From Apus apus (lineage: Eukaryota > Chordata > Aves > Apodiformes > Apodidae), in the NCBI RefSeq assembly GCF_020740795.1, contig NC_067285.1:77476342-77540341 (forward strand): DNA of 64,000 bases, in the 5' to 3' direction. Positions 6,446 through 55,983 of this stretch are shown piece after piece. Every line of letters starts with the position of its first letter. Within the stretch, counting starts at the first letter, position 1. Under the pieces are notes generated by a model. It made no database searches. It was not told where the DNA came from and worked only from the letters and a program-made list of their open reading frames with translations. Made by a program: the position numbers and the translations under genes.

Positions 6446-6612
6446 ATGCAAATACTGGCATTATGATGAAAACCTGCTCACCTCCAGCGTTGTCATTGTC
6501 TTCCATAATGAAGGATGGTCCACACTCATGAGGACAGTCCACAGTGTCATTAAGAGAACACCAAGGAAATACTTGGCAGAAATTGTGCTGATTGATGATT
6601 TTAGCAACAAAG
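6446..6612 (+). CDS. GALNT7: GALNT7 exon a: start of GT-A catalytic domain
   Basis: Exon of 167 nt. The acceptor is TTTTTACAG before 6446 and the donor is GTATGT after 6612. It reads [14 protein letters not shown], then [20 protein letters not shown] and [15 protein letters not shown]. The FHNExWSTLLRT segment is the UDP-sugar binding start of the GalNAc-transferase fold. The first base completes a codon begun upstream (a GA|A glutamate would fit the family, an inference), and the last base G begins the next codon. Confidence 0.96.
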
Positions 6613-9600: not shown

Positions 9601-12600
9601 CTGCATGTTTTGAGGGGGGGATTGCCCCATTTTTTTCTTGCATTTCTTAATAGGAACAGTTAATTTTGCTCTGAGTGCTAGCTGTGTGCTGGATACAGCT
9701 GTTCTGGAAGGACAATGAGAATTTTATAGCAAAAGATTTTTCTGAAGCTCTCTACAATTACAGTTTTGTATATAGGTCTTCAAAGACTACTATTTAGGTA
9801 CCAGCTTTATTTCTTTCTGAAACATAAAGGTCAGTATCTCAGTTGGTGCCACTTGTTTTTGTAGCCCAGGCATGTGTAGATTGACTTTGAGATAAATATC
9901 AGTGCTCCTAGTAGTGTTTAAAGGCTTTGTTGACCTTTTGTGTATAATTATTTTTTTCTTCATTGCTATCTGTATTTCCTACTGATGCAACGTAAGATAA
10001 CCAAAAGGGGAGGTAATGAGCATAGATCGGTAACAGTATTTTTATTAACTTGTTAAACAGTACTTGCAGTGGGGAAGCTGAAGTGTTAATCAGTACTTGT
10101 GTTAGAGCTGAGAGCCTCAAGTTAGTAGTATTACAGCACAGAGGACTTGGAGGCAGCTGCTTTAAGTAGGACTTCTGACAGCATTTTTCTAGTTCTCAAC
10201 CTGATGTCCATGAGTCGAGGGGAAAAAAACCTGCTTTTATCCGCCTCCCCCCTGCCTTGTAATCTGCAATGTCTAAAGTCTTTTGGAGAGAGGATGTGTT
10301 TTTAAAAAACATTGATTCATGCTTTAGTCATGTACTGAGACATGAGGGGAAAATTCAACCAAGACCAGATTGGTGGTTATAATATTTGAAAGGTAAAATA
10401 CACTTTTTTAACCAAAAACCAGAATGCTGTAAGGCTGTTGACAGACACAATAAATACATGTTTTACATGAATAAAATGTAACAGTGGCTGAACAGTATTT
10501 CTAACTCTCAAACTATCAGGATTTTACACACTACTGTCATGTAGGCTTTGTAGTATCGGAAGGAAGGAAAATTCAGTTTTCCTGTGGGAAATAGTTCTTG
10601 CTGCTAACCCTGGCACAGTTTCAGGTAATGAACTGCAAAGTCCTGCCACTCGTACCGTAGAAGAGCTTTACACAATTGATATGACAGGTTTTTACAGTTC
10701 CCTGTGAACCTTACATAGTTGAACGTTTGATAGCTAAAACATTTGGCTTCTGTAGGCAGGAGAGTTGGAAATAACTTCACGTTTTAAATTAACTTTAAAG
10801 CATTCCTGACAGTCCTTCTGTAACATGTCCTTGGAATTTACAGAATAGAAAATGGTGTGGTATAAAGATTCTCCTAGTACTACTTCAGTATGACCTCATA
10901 ACTCTCTTGATTTTATATCGTAAAACTCTATATCACGGCTATCATATCATATAGCCTATATATATTACCCAGCATGTTATTCTATGCAGCATATGTGATA
11001 AAATTGTTCTTTCCCTACTTTGATATTTATGTATCCTTTAAGTTTTCCTAATGCACAAGGATTCACAAAAGAAATTGTAAATATGTGTAAGGAAAGGAGA
11101 AGAGGATGCATAAAACTTTTGAGAAGACTTATTCTTTTATAAAAGTGAGAAGGGATAACAACAGAATTAGAATATAATGTTTTCAGAAGATTGTTCTTTG
11201 GTAAAATTGCTGAATTTTCAAGTTAGGAAATATCACTTCCAAAAAACATCATTTGCATTTCAATTATTTATATGTAACTTTTGTTTAAACTAGACTTTTT
11301 TCATATATACTGTTGGCATAAGTAGCAGCAAGCTCCAGGCTTCAATCATTTTAATTCAGGATGTGGAAAATGTTGCTGCTGAAGCAACCTGGTGGCTTGT
11401 TGCTGATGAAAGGGACTTCTTCACCTTCCACCTCTGCCCATCCCCTCTCATTTTAGATCAGTGTAGGCACAGCATCTAACAGCTCCTTGGAGCTGCTGCA
11501 GACCAGTGCATGGATGCCTCAGCTTTAGCTTAGGTGGCTTATTTTGATTGCTGACTGAGAGGAACTGAAGCTGTAGGCAATTTTTTTGAGCCTTTCAGTA
11601 CAAAAATAGATTTGAAATGAACACCAGTCATTAATTCCACATAGCCTCAAACAGCAAGCGCCTGGCTGCCAACCCTTCTGCCTTTGTGAGTTTTCTCAAC
11701 AGAATCATCTGTGCAAAAATACTGTGCAACACCAGGATCCTTTTTTCAACCTGCATGGTAGGAATGTGGTTTCTAAATTGGTTTGGCAAAGACCAATGTG
11801 CAAATACAAATCTGTAACCATTTAAGTGTAGCCCCTCTTGACCCTCATGCAGTTACTGGTCCCTTTGCTGACCGAGTCCCTTTGGCTAAATGTTTCCTGT
11901 CTCATCAGTATGAAGAGCTACACCTCATTCACTGCAATTCTAGCCCTCCAATTATTCTTATTATTAATTTCATTAAAATATTAGCATAAGACCACCCCAA
12001 CCCCAAGGGGAACAGATCTAGATGAGGGATGGCAATAATTTGAATATGGTGGGCTTCTGTCTCTGGTTTCCAGATTTAATAGACTGACAGAAAATTTTGT
12101 GAGGCAGAGAGTGAGGGAAGAGAAAAGTTTAATTTGAAACATGGTGTCTTCAGATGTATGTGTAACATTCTCTGATGAGGGAAAACTATGTGCTGAAGTA
12201 TAGAAACTTCTCTGCCTGGTTGAACTGCAAGCAAAGGCCTGAAAGCCACTATGACATTTGTTGAAGTGACTGGGAATTGTCCAACCAGCTACCCTGTGGT
12301 GTGGCCAAACGCTTCGGCTGCTTGCTCTTCAGATGTGCCAGAGATAAATCTGTGCTGTGACATCAGAGAGCTCCACGACTTGATCTCTTCAGGCTTAGTG
12401 TTTGTGAGCAGTTGAATTAGAGTCTCTTAAATGTCTGTAGATATATATATATATATAAAATGTCTGTAGTTGTATTTGGGGTGTATTAAGGGTACAAAAA
12501 TGTACATTATCAAACCTCACCAAAATATTTTTCTTTGTTCTTTCTTTCATTTGTTCTTCAATAGTACACTTAAAAGAGAGGCTGGATGAGTATATTAAGC

Positions 12601-15600
12601 AGTGGAATGGCCTTGTAAAGATATTTCGAAATGAGAGGAGAGAAGGTTTAATCCAAGCTAGAAGCATTGGAGCCCAGAAGGCTAAACTTGGACAGGTAGG
12701 AGCCAGTTCACACACAAATCAGGGCTTTTTTTCTTTTTTGGGGGGGAGAGGTGGTGGTTCTATGTTTGAATAGGTGTGTAGAAACATAGTATTATATTAT
12801 TAATACTGCTTTTAAACTATACTAATTTTACTCATTTAAGCTTTTTTTTTTAATAATACGGAAGTATTTCAATGTACATAACCTTAATTAAATGATTGTC
12901 ATCTCATATACAGAAATAGAATTTTTTATTTTTTTTCTTTTGAAGGTTTTGGTTTACCTGGATGCCCATTGTGAGGTGGGAATTAATTGGTATGCGCCAC
13001 TTATAGCTCCTATATCTAAGGACAGGTAATGTTCTCCTGTTATTTCCAGTGCTTGGCCTCTTAGGAAGACAAAGTGACAGTAACAGTCTTCACTTTTCTA
13101 ACTGTAGTCAATTTTTTTTATATCTGTATTTGTTGTATGATGATTTTATTGTCATCATAGGAAAATAAGCAGATAAATCTCCTGATAGTTTCTTTTAATA
13201 GTCAAACTGAATGTTTTGCATAGTATAGATTAAATACAAGATTAAATACAAGGCGGTGATTTCAGGCACTGTTAGAAAAATGTTCCATTCTGGCTGAATA
13301 AGGAGCCTGGTTAAACAAAATAACTAAACAAAAAAGTGATATTTGATAGATGAAGAGTAGTGGTGTTTTGATTTAATCAGGATTTGGAGCCTGCGTGATC
13401 TCAAGAGTTTTTTAGCTTTCTCACCTTTGGTCTTGCAATATGGTCTTGTTTCCTCTGAAACTTTTTTTGGAGTGTTGCCCCTAATGAATGGAGACCAGAG
13501 CTTGAGCCTGCCCCTGCTGCAAGCCCAGGCACTTGATAGGAGCCAGGGGTGGAAACGCCGGCGTGGTGTGTGTGGGATCTGCCAGGGGTGACAGAGGAGA
13601 GGGATCCCCAGGGGCTTCCTTTCTTCTAGTTGTTGAAATGATGCTGTCGCCGCATGCTACCACATTCTTAGCTTCTGTGGTCTGGTGGTGTTTGTGTTTA
13701 GGAAACCATGTGTTTGTTTGAACATTTTAATCCCATAAAATAACTATTTAATCCTAAAAGTATTTGTCAACCTGTCGTACTACTAGAACTTACTTGAACA
13801 GGTGGGTTTTGTGTGTTTTAAAGGCTGTAACAGCATCAATACTGTATTTGTGCCAGGATACTAGAGAGAGGGTGGAAATACTTTTGTGCTTCCACCGAGT
13901 GTATGTTAGTCTTTTACATGAGAGAGGCTGGTGAGAACGGGCAGCTTTAGGGGCATCCTCCAGCACCACTTGCAGAGGCAGAGAGGCTACGTGAGGACCA
14001 GTGATGCCGAGGTGCAAGGTGCCAGAGAGCAGCCCTTGGCAGCCTTCTGCCAAGCCATGGTAGCCTCATTAGCATTTCCCCCCTTTTCTGTCTCGTAGGA
14101 TTTGACTTAAAAAGATTATAAAGCTCCAAGTTTGGTCACTTGGAAACTCATTTGGAAAACTGGGAGGGGAGTAACAAGATAGTGTCTTTTCCTTGGTGAA
14201 CATTTTATGTGATAGATCACAATGAGGAGTATATTACAACTCAAACAGGAAAAAATCTACTAAAGAGTGCTGATAGGAGAGCACCAGTAATGTGTTGGGG
14301 TTTTTTTATCCTGAGAGATTTGATTTGCAGGGCAATTGAATAGGACAGAATAGTGATAATCCACATTTACAGTAGTAAAAGATAAGAGCTTATCATAGTT
14401 GTTGACAGCTAAGATCTGATACGAATAGAAATTACAGGAAATAATATTACTGTGAGAACCCTAGCCCTCTACAGGCTCCTCTGTTGCCTCCAGTAGTGCT
14501 CTATTGGAAGACTGATGTTAAAAAGTAGACATAAAGAAAAAAGTACTGATAAATTGATGTATTAGCATTTCAGACCTAACTTTTCTGCTTTCAGAACCTC
14601 TTAACATAAAGGACTATCTCTTTTTTCTTCTAATGAGACTTCATTTTTTTAATAATACGTTTACGAGTGACTTTTCATATAAACTGCTCTGTAAGCTTAA
14701 TAATTGTGTAAATTTCAGATTAGACAGATTACTCTTCTGAAATTGTATTTTGCTCTCTTTCCCTTCTATAAATGCTTCAGAACTACATGTACTGTACCTC
14801 TAATAGATTACATAGATGGGAATGATTATTCCATTGAGCCACAACAAGGTGGGGATGAAGATGGTTTTGCCAGAGGGGCCTGGGACTGGAGTTTGCTATG
14901 GAAACGAATTCCGTTAAACCACAAGGAAAAGTCCAAACGAAAACATAAAACTGAGCCTTATCGGTAAAGACGGCTGTTTACATACTGTGAATCATAACAA
15001 ATAACTGTCTAAACCCTGTCATTTTTCCCTCTCCCCCCCTCTTTTCCCACGATCTACGGTCGGTGCACGTGTGCCACACGGGTCCTTGCACATAACCACA
15101 TCTCCCCTGCACCCCCCGCCACCCTGCAGAACCACATGCACTGTGCCGCTTATAGATGTCATAGATGGCAACACATATAGGATTGTGCCGCAAGGGGGTG
15201 GTGACGAAGATGGGTTTGCTAGAGGAGCGTGGGATTGGAGTATGCTATGGAAGAGGGTTCCCTTGACCAAGCGAGAGAAGGAAAGCAGAAAGACAAAAAC
15301 TGAACCGTATCGGTAATCACTAAATCACTTACCCCTCTCTTTTTTTTTTTTTTCCTGAAGTCAATATTGATCCACTAAAACTTGCATGTACTTCTAACCT
15401 GAAAATCTTCGTGTTTCTAATCACACCAGCTGCTTTGTTTAGTCAGACCTGTTTGCCACAACTGACTATTTCCTCAAAATACCTTTGCTACCTCATGTCC
15501 TCTCCATTCCTGCTCTTGTGTGGTTAATAGGGTGCACACTAGAATGACAGGGTTTGGTTTGGCAAAGAAAATATTGTATGACTTAGTTTTGAGGGGAAAC

Positions 15601-18600
15601 TCTGTTTAGCTCTGATACGTTTTTTAGGTAGCGTTGGAAACAACAGTGTTTATTTAACCATTTGTTTTGAAATAACAAGCATGCTGTGAGAATTTATAAC
15701 TGCCAGTAATGTATAAAATCTGTAGCCTGGTGTCATGGCTTGGTGCATGCATACAGATTGTGGATTATGCATGTGTGTAAAAAAAAAAAAAAAAAAAATC
15801 CCTTTTGTTATATTTCTCCCACTTGCTTTGTAGTAGATCACATCTGACAAAGCAGCATACTGTTTAAGAATCTTGCCTGGATATTTTCTAAGGTCTCAGT
15901 ATGTTTTGGAATTTCAATTTAATATACATAACATGGAAAAAAACAACCAAACAAAAAAACCCACCAAACCAAAAGATGTCTACCATCTTATTTTCTGGGA
16001 AAACTCCAATAGCTTTCACAGAAGTCCTACCTTTTTCTTTATGCTTTGTAGGGGACTGTGGTTTTTTCCCAGCAAACAGAAACTGGCTAGAAACCATAGC
16101 TTAGAAACTTGGGGTTTCTGGATGGCTTTTCAAGACTAGGAGACTGTGGTTCTGCTGTTTTTTTTTACTTTCCCCTTCACATTTAACTAATAGTGTTACT
16201 ACATTTGAAAGCAATCCTCACATCTTCAGAATCTAATTACTTCTATTGCTTATATATATGATTTAAACATTGTAAGGACTGGTGTTGGTAATTCCCTATC
16301 CTCACCCATGGTTGTTCTTTGCTAAAATGGCAACACATGCAAGGAAGTTATGAAGCTTTGATCTCTTTTGTATACAGTATAAATAATTCCATTTTCTGAC
16401 AAGGCTGTCCACATTGGAACTTAATATTCGCTTAGAGTGAAATAAACTATTTCAAACATTGCTGTTGTGTTCTGTGTTTACCATCCAAACAGGTGTTAAA
16501 ATGCTTTAAACTATTCCCAGAAACATAGAACACATGTTCTCAAAATGGTTTAAAAGATGACTTTATGTTTAATAATACTTTTCAAAGTTACAGTACTTTT
16601 TTAAAAGAGACATTCCCTGCATCTGTTTATATCCAGGCTGTATGCATTTTGTTGCAGCAATATCAAGGCAAGTAAGACCAAGTTTTGCTGAAACCATAGC
16701 CAGGACTGCTTAGTGTTAAAAGAAAACAAACCCCAAAAAAACTCTCAATAGCTTAAAGCACAGAAACAAACTTTTTGTAATGTGAGAATTGCCCCAGGAC
16801 AGAATCCTTCTTTCAGTAATATTATGCTTACCTCCTCATATCCTATAAAATAAACTACTAAGCTCATGCAGATTTTACTGTATTCTTTAACACACTTGGC
16901 AGCACATTGGAGGCCAAGACTAAAACTTCAGCATCTGAGGCCTCTACACTTGCCAAGTGTTTATGGTGCAGAGAAAAAGCAAACGTGCAGTAAAGCCACA
17001 GGGCTGTGCTCCACAGTGTGCTCCTCCCTGCTGTGCTCCCTGGCTCCCTCACCTCTAAGCAGCCAAGTCAAGGGGGACCTTTAGGAGTTAACTCAGAATC
17101 TGATCAGGTCATTTGGAGAGCAGCTGAACTGATAACCATTATACTTAACTCAGCAGATGGACCCAGCAGCTCTGGTTTTGTTGTTGCCCTACCTCTGCTA
17201 TGCAGAGGAGCTATATGTTGTTAGCCCTGCAGGTTACTTTTTCCTGAGCATTTCTACTCTAGACATTCACGTGCAGAAGGGAAATACATAATCATTGCTG
17301 TTAAAAGGAGCACGACCAAGTTAATCTAGTAGAATTAAGAGGCAGAATAGTGCTAGAAAAGACCCATCTCAATAACTTCATCATGAAAGAGTAGTTCACT
17401 TGTGTTTTATTTAGCTTACCAGGGTGATCTTGAACTCTTGGATCCTCCACCTTTCAATGCTGCAGATCATTTAAAGTCAGAAAGAATTCACTTTTTCCTT
17501 ACCAGCTTTTTTTTTTAATTGCCAACTTAGTGGGGAGCCCAACTTATATCCATAAAGTTTTTTAGATACTTATTAATCCTCAGGTGAAAAATGCATGGTA
17601 TGTGCACTGGAAATGCTTAACATACACTTCTCTCTGCTTCAGTGTGACCGAGCAATGGAAAAATTTTGGGTAAAGCCATTCTGCAAAAAAATGCTCTAAT
17701 CCAAATTATAACGTCTTTTTGACACATTAAAACTTGCTAATTGAACCCTGGCATAGATTGAGGGATTTACAAAACCATAAAAAAAAAAATACACAGAACA
17801 CTAAATCAAAATGGAAACCATATACAACTTGATCCAGGCCCTCTTAAAAATTTCCAAGAGGATAATGAAAAGTGGCTGATATGGCAGTAGCAGAAAAAAA
17901 AAAAGCCAGAAGGAGGAGATAGATACTGTTTAGCTAGAAAAACTGTATTGCTTGTGTAATAGTAAGTTTCAATGTGGCAGCTCCTCAGAGCATAAGCTTT
18001 CAGTCTGCTGTATGGTCTCATCTGTTATCTCAGAAGCTTGAATGACTTTTGAGAATGAAATGTCTTGCCATGCTGATTCTTACTTTTTTTTTAATAGAAA
18101 CACAACAACTGGCCGAATGGACAATGCCAACCAAAATTTTGTATAATAATTTAAAAAACAACAACAACAACAAATTATTACTTCCCTTTAAATTATACAG
18201 GTGTCATTTCAGAAAATCACTGGAAGCTGATGACAAAGCTTTATGATTTTTCAGTGTATTGCCATTTGTCTAATCTTTATTATATGTTAACAGTAAATTT
18301 CTTCCTTAATTAATGCTTCCCCCAAGTGTTATCATATGCTTTCAGCAGAAGAAGTTACACTGTCTTCCTCTTTCAGGTCCCCCGCAATGGCTGGTGGATT
18401 GTTTGCCATCGAACGTGATTTCTTTTTTGAACTGGGTCTCTATGATCCAGGTCTTCAAATCTGGGGTGGTGAAAATTTTGAAATTTCTTACAAGGTAACA
18501 CTAAAAAATTAAAGCTAATTCAGTTTAGTGTATGTATATTTTTTGTAAATACCCCTATTTGGAGTTCAGACCAACCAAACTCTGATTTGCACCACCTGTG

Positions 18601-21600
18601 TCTCATGAAGCCTGATAGGTTGTGTTGCAAGGAGGCGTTGTGGTAGAGGTGTGTGTCCTTTACGTTTCCTGGTGGGCTTTAGGGCAGAAACGTTCAGAGA
18701 GGTGGCTTGATGCTGAGACCCGAATGCTGCGTAATCTAGATTTTGTTAATGCTTTGGGATCACACACACCCCATAACATTTAATCTGAAATCAGACTGGC
18801 AGATTTCATGGGGGGAAACTGAATGCTGTCATGGTGAGTGTAGAAAAATACTGCTTATAATAAAAGTGTTTCCACAGAACAAGTAGTACTCAGTTTATGC
18901 ATAGATGCATATGAAGTATATAATGATGCAACAAAAAGTAATCTGCCCTGGCTTACTCCTTCCTGCCATTTTTATACCATTTATATGATCTCATGTACTT
19001 TTCAAAATTTCAAGAACTTCTTTAAAAGAGAAGTTTTCATAATTGAAACACTAACTGCATAATTCATAATCACTGCAGAAGATTTTATTTTCACTCTTAG
19101 GCATATGCATGCTCTTCAGTTAGCAGGGAACATGGTAATCATTAGCTTCTTGTAGTTTCAGTATTCATAATGACATAAGTGGCAGACAGCAGGAATCTGT
19201 CCCAATTAACAGACAAAAGTAGAGACATCTTATATTCTCAGCAGCGATCTGTGAAACCATAGCTGAATTTTACCAAAAGTACATTCAGACCTCCCCTAGC
19301 TACTCCCACTCCTTGTGATTTTCAGGAAAGCTCTGTGTGCACTTGCTCAGCTGTAAATCCATATGCAAAAGGTAGTAATTGAGGATGTTACACATACAGT
19401 CTTTATCCTTCTAGTTCTCCATCTTTCTTAGAGCTAATAAATCATGATTTAAATTACAGCAGTTTTGTAATTGAACTGCTGATTATGTAGAGGGCTCCAA
19501 ACTGGTTTCATGCAGATCACGACCGATCTTCAGCAGAGCTAAACAAAATTTATCAGTCCTGGATGCTGACTCCTGGATAGCAAATACGATGGCCTCACAT
19601 ATCTGAGGGGTGTTTTGACAAAGCTTAAGAAGCTTAATATGATAACGCAAGGAAGACAGTAAATTATTCAGCCCATCTCTCCTAATACTGTGAAGTCGTA
19701 TTTTTAATCTGGAATTCAAACTAATTTGGAACACCCCCAAAGCTAGCTTGAATTTGGATTTCATGCTACATTTCAAACTCATCAAAACTATGAGTAACTA
19801 AATTCAGATTTAGGTATGTTTTCTTTTCCCCATTAGTGGATTATCCAAGGATGTGTGGGAGGGAGGGGATTTCAGAATGGTAATGTTTTACCTATTTTTT
19901 ATTTCCAGCTACTATAGCTAAGGAAAAATGTGTTTGTACTTGAAACAATGGGATACCAAAGACAGCCTTATCTCCTACTAGTCTTTATTAAGAAAAATTT
20001 AAATGTGATGGGCATGTAACCAAAATCCATTTTAGTGATGTTATGTGAGTTGCTTTAATAAAATAAAAATATTCTGCAATAATAAAAATTAGTCAGTTCC
20101 AGATTTTGTGCACTCATTCGTTACTGTTATTTTAAAATAGCAATGGAATGAGATGGCAAACTTTTTTAAAAGGTCTTTTAAAAAGTAATTTAGCTTAGTA
20201 ATATCATGGCTGAGATAAAGATGTACTAAATACAGCCTTTAATTTCAGAGACCTATTATGTTAATGCTTGCAGAATCACAGAATGGTTTGGGTTGGAAAG
20301 GACCTTAAAGATCTTCTAGTTCTTAACCCCCTGCCGTGAGCAGGGGCACCTCCCACTAGACCAGGTTGCTCAAAACCCCATCCAGCCTGGCCCTGAACAC
20401 TTCCAGAGAGGGAGCATCCACAACTTCCCCAGGCAACCTGTTCCAGTGTCTCACCCTCCTCACACGAAATCATTTCTTCTTAATATCTAATCAAAATCAT
20501 CCCTCTTTCAGCTTAAAAACATTACCCCTTGTCCTATCACTACATGCACTTTTTAAAAGCCCCTCCCCAGCTTTCCTGTAGCCCCTTCAGATACTGGAAG
20601 GCTGCTATAAGGTCTCCGTGGAGCCTTCTCTTCTCCAGACTGAACAGCCCCATCTGAAGCAAAAGTATTTAAATATATCACAGAGTTGGTATGTTAAGAA
20701 AAGTGATTGAGATTTCTTATGTAGCTTATTATGTGTCTGTCTTAAACTCCAGTGCATACATATTAATATCTCCACCTTTGTTTTAACTTTTAGATCTGGC
20801 AGTGTGGGGGAAAACTGTTGTTTGTTCCCTGTTCTCGTATTGGACACATCTATCGTCTCCAGGGTTGGCAAGGAAATCCACCCCCTGTGTACGTTGGGTC
20901 TTCTCCTACGTTGAAGGTACTGTTTTGCTGCAACCTTGAAGGTGTTTTTTTATTTTAGATAACAACAGTTTTTAGATAATTCTACTTAAATTATCAGTAG
21001 CAGTATAGAGACAACTTCATCCAAAGCTATTTAGTATCTAAAGCTAAGATAGTAATTCCCACAGGAGGGAAATCTTTTTGCCAATCCCACTAAGAGTAGA
21101 GATTCCTAGAACCCATCTTTGAGATACAAATCACATTTCCTGTTACCTCCTCTGATTACCCCAAGACTTTGATGCACTGTGCGTAACTGGAGTACGAACA
21201 ACTCTAGTAAATACAACACACACCTGGAGAACATGATTGTGGGTTTTAAATCCATCTTTGGCTTGAAAGGAGGTGATCATAGGCAGACTTAGCAAATGCT
21301 GTAGTCTAGCATCTTGCAGAGCTTTGTGGCTCCATTTGTTAATTAAGAAGCAGTAAACGACACCTGAGAAAACGGCATGCTCTGCACTTCATCGTAAAGC
21401 TTGGTAACTCCTCAGACTCCTTGCAGGTTCAAAAGTGCTGCTCAAGCCATGATACTGAAAATACGTACCATGTCAAGAGGAGAGTGAGCCAGCTGTCTAT
21501 ATCTGAAGACACAATGTGAAACAAGAAAAACTGTTTCATAGAAGTTTCCACCTACCAGCAGGAATAGAGATGATCCTCCTGTTGAGGTTTCCTTTTGCCT

Positions 21601-24600
21601 GGTTTAAGCTTCCTCTTGTGCAGTGTTTTGTCATTGGTAAATCCTGTTCCCAAAGACCCGGTTCTTTGTAAATTCAAATCCCAGAACCATCTTCTGAGAT
21701 GTTACCTGTGGCGATGACTACTGGTAGGGTTACAGAGCGTGGCTTGAGCCAAGCTAGCAGTTGGTTCTGTTGAAAAGGGAACATCCCAGCCTTGCTTAGC
21801 AATAGAAAACTAACCTGCTACCAAAAAAGCAACAAAAAAAGATTGTCTATTAGAAATATGAACAGATGAACATTTTGATCAAACAAGCACTAGGACCAGT
21901 ACAAGGGGGACAAGGGGAAATGGGAATAGCTGGGAGTAGAGACAGGGCAATGGGAGACAGACTAGCAAATGATAGCTCCATTACTCAGTGAAGGCAAGAT
22001 GTTGGTTTGCCTCGTCTGAAATTTTAAAATACATTTCACTCTTCAGAAAAGCTGACAAAAAGTATTTACTGCATACCTAAACACCTTACATGAGTCTTCT
22101 TATCTGCTTACTGAATACAACAAAACATTATCAAGTGTTCTTAAATATTAAGTTGCCTCTCCATTCAAGGCAGGATGCAGAATACCTTTCTCCCTCTTTG
22201 AGCACCCTCCTCCCCACAGTAAATGTGCTTTTTTTATAGCTTCATTCAATATATGCTGGATGTGGATTAAAGTAAAACAATAATTTGTGCCTTTAGTCAG
22301 ATCTATTAAGATTGTTTTAACACCTGGTCATTAATGCTAGAAGAATTGTACAAAGTGTGGTGTGCATCTAGAACAGATACAGGTAATACAGAGATAAGAG
22401 CCATCAAAAAGACTCAGAAGAAAGACGTAAGAAAGTCTTGTTCACCAGGCAAGCAATCCATTTTTCCCCTTCTCCACTCAGCAATACACTACTTTGCTTG
22501 AGGAGATAACACCTCATTCATGTTTCATAGCAGACTCATTGAAGACTTTATTTTTTCACCCTTAGTGGTCTAATGTGTATCATTCACTCTATTAAAACAG
22601 TAGAAGGTGAATACAAACTCTAAATTGCAGTTCTGATACACAGCAAAGTATTGCAACATTTTATTGCACTCACAACTGAAGAGTATTTATTTTCAAATAA
22701 ACATTCTCTAAGCTTAGAAGAAGACTTTACTCTTGTTAAGCGAATCAGTTTATTTTGCTGGCTTCAGTCCTAAGATATTGTTTTAATTTGAAAATAATAT
22801 GCCTGTGTCTTTTATAATCTGCTTCAGGTGACAAATTGTTAGTACTATGTAATTATTTCATGCTGTCACTTTTATTTAAGAGGAGACATCCTTAAATCTC
22901 TGGAATTAACATGCCGTTGCATCTGATGTTGTGTGTACTTTGAGATAGCAGCAATGTCCTTGTCCTTCACAGAACTATGTCAGAGTTGTAGAAGTGTGGT
23001 GGGACGAATATAAAGATTACTTCTATGCTAGTCGGCCAGAGACAAGAGCGTTACCCTATGGAGATATATCTGAGCTAAAAAAATTCCGTGAAGATCACAA
23101 CTGCAAGAGTTTTAAGTGGTTTATGGAAGAGATAGCATATGATATACCTTCACATTATCCCTTACCACCTAAAAATGTGGACTGGGGAGAGGTAAGTACA
23201 GTATATAACATGTATTTATTTTATGAGCTTTCTTTAAAAATTGGGAACCCCGAAGAAAGTGATAGCTACTTTACATCAATCTGAGAATAGGCTCCTTGAT
23301 TACCACTGTACTAAGGCTAGGAAAAAAAATGTTATATACTTTAAGAGGTGGGATTTTTATTTTTTTTTAGCTCCATAGTTCCTGGAAGGATTATTCTGAG
23401 TCTAACTCTATCTTCAGTTGTGTCTAAAGCTTTCTCTGTCGTAACTGGAATTTTTGTTTTTTTAAAAGAAAAAATGTTAACGGTGTGTGCATAAAACTAT
23501 TGGCAAAGATGAATAGGTGAGAATCTTTTTCTGGGAAGGTGTAGAGAGTAGATAATGAAATCCAGGTGGAGTCCATTCTGCCTACGTTTGCTAGCCTGGG
23601 ATGTACTCATACAGTTAAAACCTCAGTAAATCCCTTATCTGCGTGTAAGAATTTAACATGATTCCTTAGCCATCTCCAGCATTAGTGTATATCAGCATGA
23701 ATTCACTAAATTCAGAATGTGGTGTTCTTCGTTAGACGTTTTCACATGGTTGACAGAGACAGCATGTCACCAGGCCAGTGCAGGATACCTCACTGAACCC
23801 TGTCCATTTTGTTGTAGCATTGAGTCCCCCCCTTGAGGAGCTCTTACTACATGTCTTCTGCCTGCTTTCAAATTTTTTGTTTTCCTCTTTTTAGTTGGTT
23901 CCAGCCTTGCCTGGTCTCTCCCGTTAATTTCATTTTTGCACTTTTTTCCATCATGAAGAAGAAAGAAGCTCTGGCAAAGAAAATTGGTCTGGAAATTGGA
24001 AAGACCATAAAGTCTTTGTAAAGCTGTTTGCTGGCCCTCCTGAGAAGCTGATAGGATAATGCTGTTGAGGCATGCTTTCTGATAGGACTTTTGTTCTTTA
24101 TCCCTGTGTCTGTCCCTCATCAATCTTATCCCTTTTTTTCCTGTGTAATTGCTGCTGCACAAGGTGCTTCTGAGCAGCAGGGTCAGTGGGCTGAGCCTGC
24201 CTGCAGTCAATAGCGGCTGTGTGGAACTTCTCTGCATCACGTTTCTCTCATCCATAAGATGAAAGCAACTTAGCTGAGCTCCTGCTTTATTTATGAACAA
24301 AGAGAGGGGAGACTGAATAAATTAAAACATACTTCAAAGTTGTACATTTCAGTGTCATTAATTTAAAACTGAGCTTTGCAACTCTAGCTTCATCAGTGTA
24401 CTCTAACTCACGTAAGAGCCCACAAATTAGCATGGTCATCTTGAAGCTCCATCTCCCAGAACAGTTAAGATAAGTATTTAAATTTCATGCATAGGTTCAT
24501 CTCGTATCTCTCTGGCATATTATCTGTTTCTGATTTGAAAGATAAGTGGGAATTTTCTGAACTCCTTTGCACTTATTTTTTCATTGACACTAACCTAGAG

Positions 24601-27600
24601 TGCAAAACTTCTTTTCCAGATTAGAGGCTTTGAAACTTCTTATTGCATTGATAGCATGGGACACACCAACGGTGGCTTCGTTGAGCTTGGGCCATGCCAC
24701 AGAATGGGAGGAAACCAGGTAAGGAGCTCGGGGGCAAGTATGAAGGAGAACTGCTTGCTGTGGATGGTAACAGGCCAGTTTTCTGTTAAGCTTCTATGTA
24801 AAGTCACTTAGGTGCTACCTACAAAGATGGGAGTTAGGGATTTTCCATAAGCATACTGACATTACTAAAATATCAGACTCTGACCATTTCAAGCACAAAT
24901 GGTATAAAATCAGAGGAAGTTAATCATCTCTTTTTCAGTGAACCAGGTGTATGAGAAAGCAAGGACTGTTTCAGATCAACCATATCACTGCATTAGAACA
25001 ACTGCAACCTTAGCACTGCTGTTGATTCATCATCTTTCTTCACTTAATAATTCTTCCTTGAGGAAATTACCCCCTTGCTTTGACTACCAATTATTTTACA
25101 AAGTTGTTTTGCTCTAGTGGAAACATAAAACACTTCTGTGCGTAACTCCTCTTCCACCACAGACCCCAAGAAATTGAATACAAATTTGTCTCTGCTTCAT
25201 TTACAAATTAATTGGCAGAATATAGTTAGTAATAGATGGTTGCAATCCAAGCTACTATTATGTTTGACCTGTATCTTCACAAACCTACCCACACTACCAC
25301 GCAAGCATGCTGCTTGGTATTTACATCTCCATTTTGGCTGGAAAACTTTTCATCATTTGAAGTCCTTATTTATGCTGATGTAGACTTGAACGAGGCAAGT
25401 TTTGCCAGAGTAGTCGTGAAGTCACATGCAGGATGATACTTTTAAGAATTGTGTTTGGGTTAGCTCTTAATAGCCCTTGAAATGCCTGTTTTATTTTTAT
25501 ATTTAATAAAAAAGTTCCCTAAAGTACATCTGTATATGTTATGCCCAGAAACCCTGTAGCAATCATTTAATAAGAATAGTTAGGATAGTCTTTTTGTATC
25601 TGGATGCATTAGTTTGATTTCCTTCATGGGTGAAATGCCAAAGTTTTACTGTCTTCACGTGAAATTACTATCCATGATCAAAGACTTGCTACCAGATCTT
25701 TAGAAAGGTAGTGGTTTGGCCATCAAATCATACAAAGGCTTTTAATTAGACACTTTTAGAAGTCTCCCAAATAGGGATCTCTATATTTTTATCATTTTTG
25801 TGTTGCTAGGTAAGTGTCTCAGAGTTCTAAATCCTACAGGAGAGTTCTTAATGAAATTTATTATTGCCATAGTAAAAGGGCATTACATCATGTAAAATAA
25901 AAAGCCCCCCTGAAAGATGGATTTAATGACACCAGGCAGTATTTTGAGTGATGCAATTTTGTTAGTATTTTCAGTGTTCCTAACATATTTGAGTCAACTA
26001 TTTTTGCAGTTTGTCTTTTGTTTTTTTTTTCTGTTAGCTTTTCCGTATCAATGAAGCTAATCAACTCATGCAGTATGATCAGTGCTTAACTAAAGGACCA
26101 GATGGATCCAAAGTTATGATTCTACACTGTAAACAGAATGAATACAAGGATTGGCAGTACTTCAAGGTATGCAATAGATAAGCAGAAATTATAATTTGCA
26201 TCCTTTTTTTGGTTATTTTATGTATATCTGAAAATAAAGATCTGCAACAAGGATAACTGAACAAAATCAAGTAAGTAAGTTGCACATTCTTGGAAATCCA
26301 TGCTGACTAGGAAAACGTCCTCTAGAAAAATACAAATTTACTAGTGATTCTAGCTGCTGTCTTGTGTAGCAAAATCTTTAAGGACAATACTGATGACGTT
26401 ATATGTGTTGCCACAAGTGTTAGCACTCATCTCGGAGGAAGCAAAGATTATCATAGAATCAGAGAATCCTAGGGGTTGTCACCTCTACCAGTGACAGAGT
26501 TTCTAAAAGCTTTTCATGCCATCACCCTCTCTGCCTGTATGCTTCCTATCAAGAAAGTTTCTTTATCTAATGAATGCTGTGAGAGGATTACTTAAATGCT
26601 GAGGTGTATTTAGTAGCTAGGCTCAGTATTTCATCTAATTTTGAGAGATCTAAATTGAAGTGTTTCTCTGTTTAAAGACGGATCCTTTTAAGCCCACATA
26701 AGAATAGGTAAAATAGCAGTAATCTTTGCCTTCTTGTGTTGTCTTTGCCTTCAGTGTTTCTTTTTCCTGTTTGCTAGCCATTCCGTAATAACATGCTCTC
26801 TTGTGAATTCTGGGTGTGGTGCCATTATGATGCTGTTGCAAAATCTATGAATTTTTAATAAAGACTTGGAAAGTTACCTGATATATATATGCAAAGGCTG
26901 TTACAGCCTATTTAGTGACTACATCTGTTAGTCCTTTATTAACTCTTATTTTGAACGTGTTATTTAAAAAATGTCTAAGGTTGTGTGTCTGTTAGTCTCT
27001 TAAAAAATGAGACTGAATAGTCTAAGAGTGATGTTATCCATGGATATATATGCTCCGTTTAACTCGATCTGTGTCTAAGAAACTTCTGCATCAATTTTTT
27101 TTCAGTGTTGATGTTCTTCAGTCTCTGTAGGGTATTGTATATTTATTAATTCATTAGCTGGTTATCTGGATGGTGTTTATCTGAAAGATTTAAGCACCGC
27201 TGAGTGACGCAGAATCTGTTATCCTTTAAGCCACCCTGCTTTTTCTGATATTTGCATAAAGCTGGGAAATACCAAGCACAATAATGCCATTTCCACCCAG
27301 CTTTCCTGTGCCATACAGGCAGACAAAATTCTGTAAACCTGAAATTTAAAAATTAGTAAGCAGTGTTCCAGTGCTTGCCAATTTCTGCTTTAATATTGGA
27401 ATAATATATAGCATTTTTTAACTCTCCAGCCATCCTAGTGTGTCCCAGCTTGTTATTTGGCTCTTCACGAAGAGCCAAGATTTATTTTATGCAAGAAGGC
27501 AAGAATGATCCATTTCCTCCATAATGGTACCAAGTTGTGTAATTGTTTGCTTATTACTGCAAGTTTTGAGGAAGCCCAGTAGGCATGGTCTGGGCTGTAG

Positions 27601-29052
27601 AACAAAACACTGACTGGCTTCCAGAAGGAGGAAAAAAAAGGGTGAGAGCAAAATGACCACCAAGGTTGTGTAACCAAGCAGATACTAGAAATTTGGCATG
27701 CTCTGCTTAGCAGTGTGGAGGGTATGACCATTTCTTCTAATGAGGAGGGTGTAAGGAATGAAATGCTTATGAACTGCTGAAAAATGTTGTGGCCTCATGT
27801 AAATGAAAGCTGCCAGGAGATTTTATCTCTTTGGTCGGTTGGTCGTTTGTGGAATGAATGTTAGTTTAGTGAGCATAACATCTGTGCTGCCTGAGCCTTG
27901 GGTGGAAGCAGGGCTTCAGTGCCCATGAGCAAAGGTGGGACTGGCAGTCATCTGTTTATTGTTTTTGTTCAAGCATCTGTTACTTCTCCAAGTAGAAGAT
28001 CCCCATGTCTGGCCACATGGTAGGATCAAGTATCAAGCTGAACCAATATTTGGATGTTCACATGTGTGTGGGAGCAGTGGGGCAATGGTCAGTGTCCATG
28101 CCTGGAGGAGCTGTGCACAGGGGCAGGCAGGGATGCTGAGCCCAGCCTGACTGCAGTGTTATTGGTTTGCTGCTGCTTCAGGCTAGATGCAGCCAGTCGG
28201 TGAGCCAGGACTGCATCTGGCACAGGGGTCAGCAAGCAAGAGAGGAGCCACAGGTTGCTTTGCAAGTGCCTGAGACTTGGGCATGGTAGCACAGGGTGTG
28301 TGGAAGCATGTGAGTCTCAGCCTGAAAGTGCTAGGCACCGTAGGTCTGTGGTTCCTTAGGCAGCCTGCTGTTGCTCCAGAGGCTGGACTTGCTCTCATAC
28401 CCTCTTCTCTTCCATCTACCAGCCAAACAGGGAGTAAAGCTAGTGCTTTTTTTCCCCAGTGGTATTGGTTAACACTGGGGCTGTACAGTTGCTTTATGTG
28501 AGAGCTAACCAAAGGAGGATCTGCCCAGTGGAGTCAGCTCTTGTAGAACTGTCCTCAAGAGTTAATTTTTTGGTTTGGTTACAGGACGAATGAAAAGGCT
28601 GGAAGAATTTTACACACAGTTTTGCTCACTTTCTTAGTAGTTTGTTGTCTAAAAGAAATGGAAGGTGTCTCAAGTAGACCTACACACACCAAACATTTCA
28701 TAATATGAAGGCTGTGAAAATCTAGGTTTAACAAATAGTAAGATTAGTATAGAACTGATCTATTCTGGGACACTGAAACATGTTTTGTAAATAGCTATAT
28801 GCAGTTGTAAAGAAAATGTTAAAAACAAAACAAAAAAATGAAACAAAACAAACAAACAAAAAAAACCCCAAACAACCCAATTCAACACATGTTCCTGATG
28901 GTTTTGTTTTCCAGAATCTGCATAGATTTACTCACATTCCGTCAGGGAAGTGCTTGGATCGCTCCGAAGTCCTCCACCAAGTATTCATTTCAGACTGTGA
29001 CTCCAGTAAAGCAACACAAAAATGGGAAATGAACAACATCCTTAGCGTGTAG
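6446..29052 (+). CDS. GALNT7: GALNT7 coding region, 3' part (spliced; 11 exons seen, 10 per transcript)
   Basis: Polypeptide N-acetylgalactosaminyltransferase 7, a type II Golgi membrane enzyme that transfers GalNAc from UDP-GalNAc to Ser/Thr, acting preferentially on substrates that already carry GalNAc (known for the family). Exons are 6446-6612, 12565-12695, 12946-13025, one of 14781-14963 or 15130-15312, 18377-18494, 20794-20916, 22973-23191, 24620-24718, 26038-26166 and 28915-29052. Every junction has AG/GT borders and the frame stays open throughout, giving 461 complete codons before TAG plus the last base of a codon begun upstream. Visible motifs are [17 protein letters not shown], the DxH metal site (LDAHCEV), WGGENFEIS, and a C-terminal ricin-type lectin domain. 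Human GalNAc-T7 is about 657 residues, so roughly 195 N-terminal residues (cytosolic tail, anchor, stem, start of the catalytic domain) lie upstream of the window. The family call is secure; the choice of GALNT7 over paralogues rests on the [10 protein letters not shown] and [10 protein letters not shown] segments. Confidence 0.96.
6613..12564 (+). other. GALNT7: GALNT7 intron, 5.95 kb
   Basis: AT-rich, bounded by GTATGT and ATAG. Apart from the (AT)8 tract I see no repeat body, RNA gene or exon in it. Confidence 0.85.
12441..12457 (+). repeat. (AT)8 microsatellite between 12-bp direct repeats
   Basis: ATATATATATATATATA flanked on both sides by AAATGTCTGTAG (12429-12440 and 12458-12469). Confidence 0.9.
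12565..12695 (+). CDS. GALNT7: GALNT7 exon b: catalytic domain
   Basis: Exon of 131 nt, acceptor TTCTTCAATAG, donor GTAGGA. It encodes [15 protein letters not shown], then [20 protein letters not shown] and AQKAKLGQ, the segment preceding the DxH motif; RREGLIRAR-like sequence is typical of the family. It ends on a codon boundary. Confidence 0.96.
12946..13025 (+). CDS. GALNT7: GALNT7 exon c: DxH metal-binding motif
   Basis: Exon of 80 nt, acceptor TTTTGAAG, donor GTAATG. It encodes [19 protein letters not shown] and IAPISKD. DAH is the DxH motif that coordinates Mn2+ and the UDP diphosphate. The exon ends with two bases (AG) of an arginine codon. Either downstream alternative exon completes that codon, and so does the exon at 18377. 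Confidence 0.96.
13026..14780 (+). other. GALNT7: GALNT7 intron before the alternative exon pair
   Basis: 1.75 kb. A moderately GC-rich patch at about 13490-14050 has short open frames on both strands without recognisable content. The acceptor has a good pyrimidine tract (TTTTGCTCTCTTTCCCTTC). Confidence 0.85.
14781..14963 (+). CDS. GALNT7: GALNT7 alternative exon, version 1 (upstream copy)
   Basis: Exon of 183 nt, acceptor AAATGCTTCAG, donor GTAAAG. It encodes [20 protein letters not shown], the shared core [31 protein letters not shown] and KHKTEPYR. It differs at 13 of 61 residues from the copy at 15130-15312. It enters and leaves in the same phase (one base in, two bases out). It lies between the DxH and WGGEN motifs in the catalytic domain. 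The donor lacks G at +5. I read the two copies as alternatives, not as sequential exons, because each spans the same stretch of the protein. Confidence 0.93.
14964..15129 (+). other. GALNT7: 166-nt intron between the alternative exons, almost free of AG
   Basis: Starts GTAAAG and ends CCCTGCAG. After 14969 there is no AG until the acceptor. A pyrimidine tract at 15018-15048 lies about 85-110 nt before the acceptor, and branch-like ATAAC and CTAAA sequences lie at 14994-15013. A more ordinary branch-like CATAACC is at 15091-15097. Confidence 0.85.
15130..15312 (+). CDS. GALNT7: GALNT7 alternative exon, version 2 (downstream copy)
   Basis: Exon of 183 nt, acceptor CCACCCTGCAG, donor GTAATC. 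It encodes [20 protein letters not shown], the same core [31 protein letters not shown] and KTKTEPYR. Its length and phase equal those of version 1, which lies 166 nt upstream. The open frame, intact splice sites and mostly conservative differences indicate a working exon and not a dead duplicate. A pyrimidine-rich tract with a long T run follows the donor by about 20 nt (15333-15355). The acceptor intron is discussed under findings. Confidence 0.93.
15779..15798 (+). repeat. A20 homopolymer
   Basis: Run of 20 A in the GALNT7 intron downstream of the second alternative exon. No retroposon body was recognised next to it. Confidence 0.9.
18159..18173 (+). repeat. (CAA)5 microsatellite
   Basis: CAACAACAACAACAA after an A run, in a GALNT7 intron about 200 nt before the exon at 18377. 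Confidence 0.9.
18377..18494 (+). CDS. GALNT7: GALNT7 exon e: WGGEN catalytic motif
   Basis: Exon of 118 nt, acceptor CTTTCAG, donor GTAACA. It encodes [41 protein letters not shown](A/T)MAGGLFAI and WGGENxEIS are the classic Gal/GalNAc-transferase motif that contacts donor sugar and acceptor. Its first base completes the arginine codon begun by either alternative exon; it ends on a codon boundary. Confidence 0.96.
18495..20793 (+). other. GALNT7: GALNT7 intron
   Basis: 2.3 kb with the CR1 copy at 20272-20657. A 100-codon - strand frame at 19483-19785 has no recognisable domain and is not called. Confidence 0.85.
20272..20657 (-). repeat. CR1 LINE fragment, antisense
   Basis: Well preserved 3' CR1 piece: AGAATCACAGAATGGTTTGG, CCCACTAGACCAGGTTGCTC, ACCCCTTGTCCTATCACTAC and GGCTGCTATAAGGTCTCC. 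It lies in a GALNT7 intron and ends about 137 nt before the exon at 20794. Confidence 0.95.
20794..20916 (+). CDS. GALNT7: GALNT7 exon f: catalytic domain
   Basis: Exon of 123 nt (41 codons), acceptor TTTTAG, donor GTACTG. It encodes [20 protein letters not shown] and [20 protein letters not shown], then K. The PCSRxGHxYR segment is conserved in GalNAc-transferases and includes the histidine of the metal site. A CR1 copy ends about 137 nt before the acceptor. Confidence 0.96.
20917..22972 (+). other. GALNT7: GALNT7 intron
   Basis: 2.06 kb; nothing recognised in it. Confidence 0.85.
22973..23191 (+). CDS. GALNT7: GALNT7 exon g: end of catalytic domain and linker
   Basis: Exon of 219 nt (73 codons), acceptor CTTCACAG, donor GTAAGT. 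It begins [20 protein letters not shown] and includes [20 protein letters not shown] and ends [11 protein letters not shown]. [14 protein letters not shown] is a GalNAc-transferase hallmark. C-KSFKWF marks the end of the catalytic domain before the linker to the lectin domain. Confidence 0.96.
23192..24619 (+). other. GALNT7: GALNT7 intron
   Basis: 1.43 kb. It contains a 177-codon antisense frame (23767-24300) discussed under findings; no repeat recognised. Confidence 0.85.
24620..24718 (+). CDS. GALNT7: GALNT7 exon h: lectin domain, alpha repeat
   Basis: Exon of 99 nt (33 codons), acceptor TTTTCCAG, donor GTAAGG. It encodes [14 protein letters not shown] and [19 protein letters not shown]. 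This is the first of the three ricin-type beta-trefoil repeats; YCIDS ... GPCH is the cysteine pair of the alpha repeat. Confidence 0.95.
24719..26037 (+). other. GALNT7: GALNT7 intron
   Basis: 1.32 kb, AT-rich; nothing recognised apart from the T run before the acceptor. Confidence 0.85.
26038..26166 (+). CDS. GALNT7: GALNT7 exon i: lectin domain, beta repeat
   Basis: Exon of 129 nt (43 codons), acceptor CTGTTAG after a long T run, donor GTATGC. It encodes [20 protein letters not shown] and [20 protein letters not shown], then YFK. QCL ... HC and DWQYF are the cysteine pair and the QxW-like end of the second trefoil repeat. Confidence 0.95.
26451..26485 (-). repeat. Possible CR1 3' end scrap
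   Basis: TCATAGAATCAGAGAATCCT resembles the CR1 terminal repeat, but the sequence after it does not continue as CR1. Short and uncertain. Confidence 0.35.
28821..28870 (+). repeat. A-rich low-complexity tract
   Basis: AAAAC/AAAC-type repeats ending 45 nt before GALNT7's last exon, in the place where a branch point and pyrimidine tract are expected; the pyrimidine tract is a short GTTTTGTTTTCCAG. Confidence 0.8.
28915..29052 (+). CDS. GALNT7: GALNT7 terminal exon: lectin gamma repeat and stop
   Basis: 138 nt of coding sequence (45 codons and TAG at 29050-29052), acceptor GTTTTCCAG. It encodes [20 protein letters not shown], then [20 protein letters not shown] and NILSV. KCLD ... SDCD ... QKWEM is the third beta-trefoil repeat. 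An A-rich low-complexity stretch (28821-28870) sits just upstream of the acceptor. Confidence 0.96.
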   Translation, partial: NLHRFTHIPSGKCLDRSEVLHQVFISDCDSSKATQKWEMNNILSV

Positions 29053-40448: not shown

Positions 40449-41645
40449 CTGCAAGAAAAATGCCATTTAGTTGCTGGCAATGTAACTCTGAAGACAAAAT
40501 TGTACTGCTTCAATAATGTAATACTAATATACTATGCAGATAAAATGCTCTGTGCAGAAATGCAGGATTTAAACCCTGGGACTTCCTTGCTTACACCTTT
40601 TGGCAAGAGACCACGTGATCTGCAAAGTTTTAAGTTTTATTACTGCAGTGCTTTGGAGTATGACTGTGTATTTGTCTAAGCAGGTGACCTGTTTTCTGAA
40701 GTAACTGCAAAAACTCTACACACCCGAAAACCACATCCACGTTCGCTGCAAGGGTTCCAGATACCTCCCACACCACACCCTTCCCTGCATTCTGAAGCCT
40801 GACAAACATTTAGAACGATGATGCAGATATCATTTAGGTGCAAAACAAGTAATGCATTCACAGAGACCTCAAAAACTTCAACCATTATTTTTTTCACTTT
40901 CACTGTACCTTTTCATATTTCTCCTTTAGCTTAGCAGCCTTCTGTTCATATGGCTGTTTATCTTTGGCTGACTGTTCAGACCACATTTCACCTAACTTCT
41001 TTGCTGTATCTCCAATAGACAAGCCAGGATGATCATTTTTTATTTTTGGACGGTGTTCCGAACAGAAAAGGAAGAATGCAGATCTAAAATCAGAGACAGT
41101 GATTCAGTGTCAGACTATTACAATTAATATGGAGGGGTGGTGGGGGGTGGTGTTTCTGTTCTTTTTTGGCCATAGAAACACTCACGGTGGTCTTTTAGGA
41201 GCGTTGGGATCCTTTTTCTTTCCCTTCTTCTCGCCTTTGGGAGGAACATAGTTTTTCATCTCCCTGTCATAACGAGCTTTGTCTCCTTTAGCCATTTCTT
41301 CAAACTTTCCTTTTTCCTTGCTAGACATTGTCTGCGGACAGACGGAGGGGAAAGGAGAAGAGTCTGGATCAGATCAAGCGCCTGGTGACCCACTAACACC
41401 TAAGCAGCAGCTGCTACCGGGGATCTCTTCCCAGCAGCCCGAGGCAGGGGCGGGGGCCGGCCCGGCGCAGCTCAGCGCGGCCCGGCCCCGCTCACCTTCC
41501 ACCGCTCCGAGCACTTCCGCGAGAACTCGGCGAAGTTGACGGACGAGTCCGGGTGCTTCTTCTTGTGCTCCTCGCGGCAGGTCTGCACGAAGTAGGCGTA
41601 CGAGGACATCTTGCCCCGCGGCTTGTTGGGGTCGCCTTTGCCCAT
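40296..41645 (-). CDS. HMGB2: HMGB2 coding region (four coding exons)
   Basis: High mobility group protein B2, a nuclear protein that binds and bends DNA without strong sequence preference. It is abundant in proliferating cells and has redox-sensitive cysteines. Joining 41645-41496, 41331-41186, 41083-40909 and 40448-40296 gives 624 nt, 207 residues and TAA, the usual length. HMG box A is about residues 9-79 ([20 protein letters not shown]; Cys23 and Cys45 present), box B about 95-163 ([20 protein letters not shown]; Cys106), then a basic linker and a 20-residue run of only Glu and Asp. The start has a good context (GCCATGG). The short acidic tail and the [20 protein letters not shown] linker point to HMGB2; HMGB1 has a longer tail. 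The gene has introns and intact frame, so it is not a processed HMGB pseudogene. Confidence 0.97.
40909..41083 (-). CDS. HMGB2: HMGB2 coding exon 3 (box B)
   Basis: 175 nt, acceptor GATTTTAG, donor GTACAG. It encodes [40 protein letters not shown] and [18 protein letters not shown], ending on a codon boundary. Box B has the DNA-bending activity in this family. Confidence 0.97.
41186..41331 (-). CDS. HMGB2: HMGB2 coding exon 2 (end of box A, linker)
   Basis: 146 nt, acceptor TCCGCAG, donor GTGAGT. It encodes [40 protein letters not shown] and DPNAPKRP, ending two bases into a proline codon. Confidence 0.97.
41496..41645 (-). CDS. HMGB2: HMGB2 coding exon 1 (box A, first part)
   Basis: 150 nt, 50 codons, from ATG at 41645 to ...KCSERWK, followed by GTGAGC. 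It carries [19 protein letters not shown] and the Cys23 and Cys45 positions. The exon continues upstream to an acceptor (CCCCGCAG) at about 41667, so about 21 nt of 5' UTR precede the start in this exon. Confidence 0.97.
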
Positions 41646-42192
41646 GGCGAGGTCGGCGGCGGGTCCCTGCGGGGGGTGGGAGGGGAGACGCTGCGTGAGG
41701 GCGGGGCCGCGCCCCGGCCGCTCCCGCCTCTCGCCCGCCGGCGCCTTCCCGCCCCAACACGCCCCCCGCCGCCGCCGGCCACTCTCCCTCTCTCCGGCCC
41801 GCCCCGCCGCGCCTCCCGCCACCGCCGCCAGGCGCCTCCACCCGCCCCCCGCGGCGCCCGCCCCAGCCGCGCCGCCGCCCGCGCCCCAGCCCTCCCCGCC
41901 GGGGCCGCCGCCGCCCTCCCTGCGCCGCTGGCCGCACCCGCCCCCCCGGCGGGGAATTCCCTCTCAGCGCTGGGCGCGCCGCCCGCCCCGGCAGCTCCAC
42001 GCTCGCTCCGCACCCGGCAGCGCGGCGGCTCCCCCTCCTGCCCGCTCTCCTGCCCTCTCGGCGACCTCCCTCGCCCTGCGGCGGCCGCCGGCGGGGGCTG
42101 CGCGGGCCTTGCCTGGCTGTGCGGGGCGGCGGCGGGCGGCTCTGCTCGCTCTCGGCTGCTGCTGCTCAATGGTTTCCCGGCGGCGCACTTAC

Positions 42193-55330: not shown

Positions 55331-55683
55331 GGCGGGGCGGGGCGGCGCGGCGGGCAGGTTGCTGTTGTTACATAGGAAACAGCTGAAGACTCTCCACATG
55401 ACAGGGGGGAAAGGAGGAAGTGGGGCGGCCCGCGGGGCGCCGCCGCTCCAGTAGCCGCCGTGCTCGGACCGTGGCAGCCGGCGCTCAGGTCTTTCCCGCG
55501 TCTTTGCGGACTGATCGCCCTCGAGGGCGGGCTTGCGTCCCGGTGCCGCCGCTGAGGGGAGGCGGGCAGGCAGCGGAGGAGCGCCCCGCCGGGCCGCGGC
55601 GTCTCGTCGGGGAAGTTTAGTGCGGCGCGGGATCCTGCCGACCTCCCCCGGGCTTCCCGCTGGCTGAGGAGGTGGCGCCGGCT

Positions 55684-55983
55684 ATGAACGGCTTCGTCGC
55701 CGAGGAGGTGACCCAGCGCGGGGCGGACCCCGCCGCTACCGTCGCGGTGGTGAGCAATGCGGGCTCCGCCGTAGAGGTACCGCCAGCGCCGCCGGGGCTG
55801 GCTCCGGCCGCTGCCGCGGGCTCGGCAGGCGCCGGGAGTGCGGGCGGCCCCGGGGCTGGGCAGCTGTGCTGCCTGCGGGAGGAAGGGGAGCGGTGCGGCC
55901 GCGCCGCCGGCAACGCCAGCTTCAGCAAGCGGATCCAGAAGAGCATCTCGCAGAAGAAGGTGAAGATCGAGCTGGACAAGAGC
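55684..55983 (+). CDS. SAP30: SAP30 exon 1
   Basis: 100 codons, from ATGAACGGCTTC to GACAAGAGC, donor GTAAGT. It encodes an Ala/Gly/Pro-rich N-terminus and then [20 protein letters not shown] and [21 protein letters not shown] chose ATG at 55684 because the family begins MNGF; the in-frame codon at 55672 is GTG and is not a likely start. Confidence 0.95.

Follow-up and report, generated by a model that had tools for sequence, protein, structure and literature searches.

The GALNT7 gene of Apus apus carries two neighboring homologous versions of exon 6 (copy A and copy B) in the part that codes for the catalytic domain, and we hold with good confidence that this pair is old, functional and used as alternatives. 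That both copies look functional is supported by the sequence analysis; alternative use of A and B is very likely, and strict exclusion, i.e., one copy per transcript, is likely. How the GalNAc-transferases choose their acceptors is a main open problem in O-glycosylation, a field in which each gene is usually taken to stand for one specificity. If our reading is true, an old and constrained exon pair in the GALNT7 catalytic cleft would give two specificities from one gene, and A and B would provide a ready natural mutant with 13 substitutions, one of them at a known peptide contact site.

Duplicated exon 6 of GALNT7

The window, i.e., the whole stretch of 64,000 nucleotides analyzed here, covers exons 3–12 of GALNT7 by the numbering that we infer (Table 1). 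The earlier note had assigned the gene to GALNT7, and this is borne out by the catalytic segment, which matched human GALNT7 (6IWQ) with an E value of 2e-89 when joined with A and 4e-96 when joined with B; 6IWQ is the best match among the solved GalNAc-transferases, with 301 and 323 bits vs 168 and 170 bits for the next one, GALNT10. Three domains, Glycos_transf_2, Glyco_transf_7C, and Ricin_B_lectin, scored above the cut-off in both isoforms, with Glycos_transf_2 at 96.1 bits in the A isoform and 93.0 bits in the B isoform. The neighborhood is also the one expected in a vertebrate, with an HMG-box frame and a SAP30 zinc-finger frame downstream of GALNT7; GALNT7, HMGB2, SAP30 is the usual vertebrate gene order. 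The start of the HMG box lies in a frame at 41472–41822 on the minus strand (Pfam HMG_box_2, E = 1.5e-14), which we take to be HMGB2-like, and the SAP30 zinc-finger frame is at 55672–56235 on the plus strand (Pfam zf-SAP30, E = 2.6e-18).

Table 1. Features of GALNT7 and of the intron between the two copies of exon 6 in the window; exon numbers follow our numbering, and branch points are predictions
Feature	Position	Strand	Remarks
GALNT7 exon 3 (inferred number)	6446–6612	+	first exon of the gene found in the window
GALNT7 exon 4	12565–12695	+
GALNT7 exon 5	12946–13025	+	DxH motif (LDAHCEV); upstream partner of A or B
Exon 6 copy A	14781–14963	+	183 nt; AG exclusion zone 53 nt; absent from the human crystal structure
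Spacer intron	14964–15129	+	166 nt; AG solely at intron positions 5 and 165
Four predicted branch-point candidates	14980–15012	+	17, 34, 41, and 49 nt downstream of A; rough yUnAy matrix
Pyrimidine tract	15022–15048	+	27 nt, uninterrupted, longest of the spacer; 82–108 nt upstream of B
Conventional predicted branch-point candidate ATAAC	15095	+	35 nt from the start of B, 132 nt from the end of A
Exon 6 copy B	15130–15312	+	183 nt; version carried by human GALNT7 structure 6IWQ/6IWR
Second long pyrimidine tract	15332–15356	+	20 nt downstream of B
TGCATG	15383–15388	+	71 nt downstream of B; single motif, possibly chance
GALNT7 exon 7	18377–18494	+	WGGEN; downstream partner of A or B
Remaining GALNT7 exons (20794–20916, 22973–23191, 24620–24718, 26038–26166, 28915–29052)	20794–29052	+	remaining part of the catalytic domain, lectin domain of the ricin type, and stop

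The earlier note had described two exons that match in length and phase and have intact splice sites, placed between the DxH motif of exon 5 and the WGGEN motif of exon 7; both the description and the placement hold, and its coordinates for the two exons and the 166-nt spacer are exact to the base. A and B are identical at 48/61 residues and 130/183 nucleotides. Their acceptors read ttcag/AAC (A) and tgcag/AAC (B) and their donors TCG/gtaaag (A) and TCG/gtaatc (B) in the window sequence, where the slash marks the splice junction. The phase is the same for the two: the AG from the exon ending at 13025 is completed to an Arg codon (AG/A) by either copy, and the 3' ends of both are CG/G, joining to 18377. 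When exons 3–12 are joined, one open frame runs to the stop, 461 residues long with A or with B, in line with the claim that either copy leads in frame into exon 7; the claim that both copies or neither would also keep the frame was equally right, and these products are 522 and 400 residues long, respectively.

The pair is the sole family of direct repeats of at least 60 nt detected in 13026–18376, spanning 193 nt at 72% identity, and the likeness stops about 6 nt 5' of the exons and about 4 nt 3' of them. Because it is limited to the exons and their immediate splice sites, the duplication is old rather than a slip of the assembly. In a search of the whole genome, A and B were the only close matches among the 14 matches listed (100% and 79%; the next one at 47%, E = 0.0013). 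By their adjacency, homology, equal length, equal phase, and intact splice sites, the two internal exons are tandem duplicated homologous exons.

Selection on both copies and age of the duplication

Synonymous sites are saturated between A and B (Sd 29.5 of 39.0 sites, pS 0.756), and nonsynonymous ones differ little (Nd 23.5 of 144.0 sites, pN 0.163); third codon positions hold 31 of the 53 nucleotide differences. Two neutral models were simulated. Briefly, in the first one, B evolved without selection up to the A–B nucleotide distance, and none of the 20,000 runs reached 48/61 identities (mean 28.8, maximum 40); in the second one, a constrained B branch took up half of the differences as synonymous changes while A acquired the remainder neutrally, and again none of the 5,000 runs reached that value (maximum 47). 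The substitution pattern and the simulations together indicate purifying selection on both copies. Saturated pS, low pN, and no match in 25,000 simulations thus mark the duplication as old and neither copy as relic-like.

A tree of the 61-residue segment (nine rows) joined A and B in its best topology with support of 47/10, and the AU test kept two alternatives, i.e., B with human (p-AU 0.34) and A with human (p-AU 0.32). Please note that four of the eight GALNT-like paralogue loci of the genome entered this tree (L004, L005, L006, and L012), the other four (L007, L008, L009, and L011) and four chance matches (L010, L013, L014, and L015) being left out. The protein tree fits several orders of the duplication relative to the bird–mammal split, so we claim great age solely from the synonymous saturation. 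The branch lengths in the protein tree are 0.3 for A and 0.008 for B.

Copy differences in the predicted acceptor-binding region

Human GALNT7 in 6IWQ/6IWR holds a B-like exon, scoring 111.8 bits with B and 92.3 bits with A; the human segment is identical to B at 52/61 residues and to A at 45/61. A and B differ in 13 columns; human agrees with B at seven of these, with A at none, and with neither at six, and there are three further columns in which A and B agree and human differs. If GALNT7 does exist as two isoforms, the structures solved for the human enzyme, and perhaps the bulk of the work on it, would have covered the B isoform only.

The GAWDW motif itself is unchanged, with five of the A/B differences before it and eight after it. 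The chain of GalNAc-T2, in which L223 starts LDSHC and Val255 lies within PIIDVIN, aligns without gaps to the bird sequence from the DxH motif on, and this places the first A/B difference at the Val255 site: Val in B (PLIDVID) and Tyr in A (PLIDYID). The site is Val in all five alignments listed, i.e., GALNT7, GALNT10, two GALNT1 sequences, and 6E4R, which is a GalNAc-transferase 9; in the eight GALNT-like paralogue loci of the genome, it is Val in six and Thr in two. According to PMC4432651, peptide binding by GalNAc-T2 is governed by a hydrophobic groove made of Val255, Leu270, Phe280, Trp282, and other residues. GALNT7 acts as a follow-up enzyme with a preference for peptides that are glycosylated already, and its catalytic domain has a putative GalNAc pocket (PMC10901373, PMC8472655). 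The natural reading of these sequence differences is that the A and B isoforms would differ in acceptor choice.

Splicing signals in the spacer intron

The AG exclusion zone of the B acceptor is 160 nt, whereas the ten remaining GALNT7 acceptors in the window have zones of 19–102 nt (53 nt for A and 102 nt for the last exon). On the plus strand of the window, two of the 4,418 AGs have a zone of at least 150 nt, the B acceptor included, and mononucleotide shuffling of the spacer gave 758 sequences without AG in 200,000 trials. The other such AG, at 42212 (191 nt), is near the HMG-box frame in apparently GC-rich sequence, and its long AG-free zone is probably compositional. In one human exon set, 165 of 67,334 have a zone of at least 150 nt, and those with a zone of at least 100 nt are more often alternative (PMC1431707).

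The four distal branch-point candidates precede the 27-nt pyrimidine tract, and at 17–49 nt from A they are below the 50-nt limit that PMC5740500 applies to potential steric interference, reported there for 57 of 629 human clusters. All branch-point and donor matrices used here are rough. With the donor matrix, A scored 4.4 and B 3.1; six of the other seven donors scored gave 7.0–11.7 and the seventh 4.0, the donor at 26166 standing outside this set. The folding of the spacer RNA, taken alone, is ordinary (z 0.18). The pyrimidine tracts flanking B are possible PTB sites, and TGCATG is a possible RBFOX site.

In the mechanism we propose, exon 6 of GALNT7 was duplicated in tandem long ago, which would have left two exons under purifying selection that are used alternatively, with copy B probably the default, as the version in the human structure, and copy A the alternative; the gene would make two equal-length enzymes differing at 13/61 residues. 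The isoforms would prefer different glycopeptide acceptors owing to these differences, including Val (B) or Tyr (A) at the Val255 site of the groove. Joining of A to B would be blocked by a branch point for B that lies too near the donor of A (17–49 nt), and the choice between A and B would be set by repression or activation of the distant pyrimidine tract of B together with two weak donors. The reading frame gives no help in enforcing exclusion since the both-copy and no-copy products are in frame. The earlier note had called for a splicing mechanism, and the spacer offers a candidate. Exclusion through U2/U12 incompatibility or through a frameshift finds no support, with all sites being GT-AG with ordinary donors (by eye) and both copies in frame.

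The feature that favors the steric step is the large AG exclusion zone (160 nt) upstream of B; the counterweight is that the last exon, which has no hint of alternative use, also has a zone of 102 nt. By analogy with known layouts, we give the steric block of A–B joining by a distant branch point, taken on its own, slightly less than an even chance. The full proposal, i.e., two tissue-specific GALNT7 isoforms with Val vs Tyr grooves at the Val255 site and exclusion by a branch point near A, is tentative and we regard it as possible rather than probable. With this spacer, the old steric model of exclusive splicing could be put to the test. Next to B, the largest AG exclusion zone among the GALNT7 acceptors in the window is that of the last exon (28915), and a distant branch point may be possible there as well.

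The conventional candidate ATAAC scored 3.80 with the rough matrix, equal to two of the four distal ones, the other two being higher (4.12 and 4.38); it lies 35 nt from B and is followed by a C-rich tract, so it would permit A–B joining and counts against the steric model. If B uses this site (15095), both copies could be functional and alternative and yet not strictly exclusive, so that transcripts carrying a single copy, whether A or B, would be made beside others with both or none, and regulatory proteins alone would choose. The products with both copies or neither do stay in frame, and skipping of human GALNT7 exon 6, which would be the same exon if two exons precede the window, has been reported (PMC13039441). 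However, the tract behind ATAAC is poor in U (16/20 pyrimidines, U only 3/20), the longest tract is the distant one upstream, and a second 61-residue copy within the catalytic fold would be expected not to fold normally; we consider non-exclusive use rather improbable.

That copy A is a decaying relic out of use might be argued from the B-like exon in the human structure and from the longer branch of A. Against this stand its open frame and intact sites, the saturated synonymous and few nonsynonymous changes, which no neutral simulation matched, and a Glycos_transf_2 score as good as that of the B isoform, so that a relic seems very improbable to us. That the pair is an assembly error or a recent, inconsequential tandem duplication can hardly be entertained: nothing was found in favor of it, and it is refuted by the 72% identity, which covers the exon with its immediate splice sites, by flanking introns in which no repeat was found, and by the synonymous saturation. 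Alternative use of two old and functional copies is the reading that we prefer.

Relation to known exon pairs and published work

Splice variants of Drosophila pgant9 reportedly have different substrate preferences, and they are said to differ in the lectin domain and not in the catalytic domain, unlike the GALNT7 pair. To go by a gene total of 12 exons, ten of which lie in the window when the A/B pair is counted once, the human exon 6 would be the exon described here. Databases may also hold a second isoform of mouse Galnt7 with the same length. For pgant9, a GalNAc-transferase gene, splice variants are described in PMC6115407.

PMC9741552 reports tandem duplicated exon events in GALNT13, Pgant5, and gly-5, and those of GALNT13 and gly-5 are of the same family and the same kind as the GALNT7 pair; its main text has GALNT13 as the sole "GALNT" name, not GALNT7. 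The A and B isoforms of Drosophila pgant5, the orthologue of GALNT1, differ within residues 398–457 of the catalytic domain, and a one-residue difference between isoforms alters the peptide preference (PMC12776162). The pgant5 segment covers a flexible loop and helices I/II, whereas the GALNT7 segment, as known here from its sequence, is between DxH and WGGEN. The GALNT7 pair extends the known type of switch in the family to another GalNAc-transferase gene, and together with GALNT13, Pgant5, and gly-5 it would make exon duplication a recurrent means of tuning the family.

The alpha-tropomyosin layout enforces exclusive splicing. In alpha-tropomyosin and alpha-actinin, mutually exclusive exons go together with an AG exclusion zone and a distant branch point close to the exon upstream (PMC1431707), a layout that the GALNT7 spacer resembles; their branch points were mapped experimentally, whereas those of GALNT7 are predicted and have a conventional rival candidate.

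A 2026 paper describes that inclusion of human GALNT7 exon 6 is reduced in endometriosis and that knock-down of GALNT7 or of the critical exon leads to more proliferation; a tandem partner of exon 6 is not mentioned in the text examined (PMC13039441). Within the accessible parts of PMC13039441, PMC9513660, PMC10135431, PMC8153164, PMC6302748, and PMC8472655, GALNT7 splicing appears in PMC13039441 only, and GALNT7 is not named in the available main text of PMC9741552, PMC7954323, and PMC5740500. Among the matches listed from the published text examined, we found no report of the GALNT7 exon pair; the pair may well be annotated elsewhere.

Relatives of the exon in paralogues

Searches for relatives of copy A gave 172 pattern matches in genome_contigs and six in viral_contigs, none of which encodes a relative, as expected for a vertebrate exon. 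With tblastn of A and B on L004–L015 (about 1.5 kb each side), all eight GALNT-like loci contained a single GALNT exon, and beside the paralogues only weak further matches were seen within the same distance. For the AG exclusion zones of paralogue acceptors, six loci were tried, and five of them had an AG close to the start of the query; those of L009, L011, and L012, with zones of 43–59 nt, look like true acceptors, and those of L005 and L006, within coding sequence or doubtful, were excluded from the comparison. Two GALNT10/GALNTL6-like exons are on the same strand about 111–166 kb before the GALNT7 exon, at contig positions 77325610–77325738 (L004) and 77380366–77380530 (L027), and at this GALNT10/GALNTL6-like gene the exon homologous to A/B is present as a single copy within 1.5 kb each side. 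The two exons probably belong to one gene.
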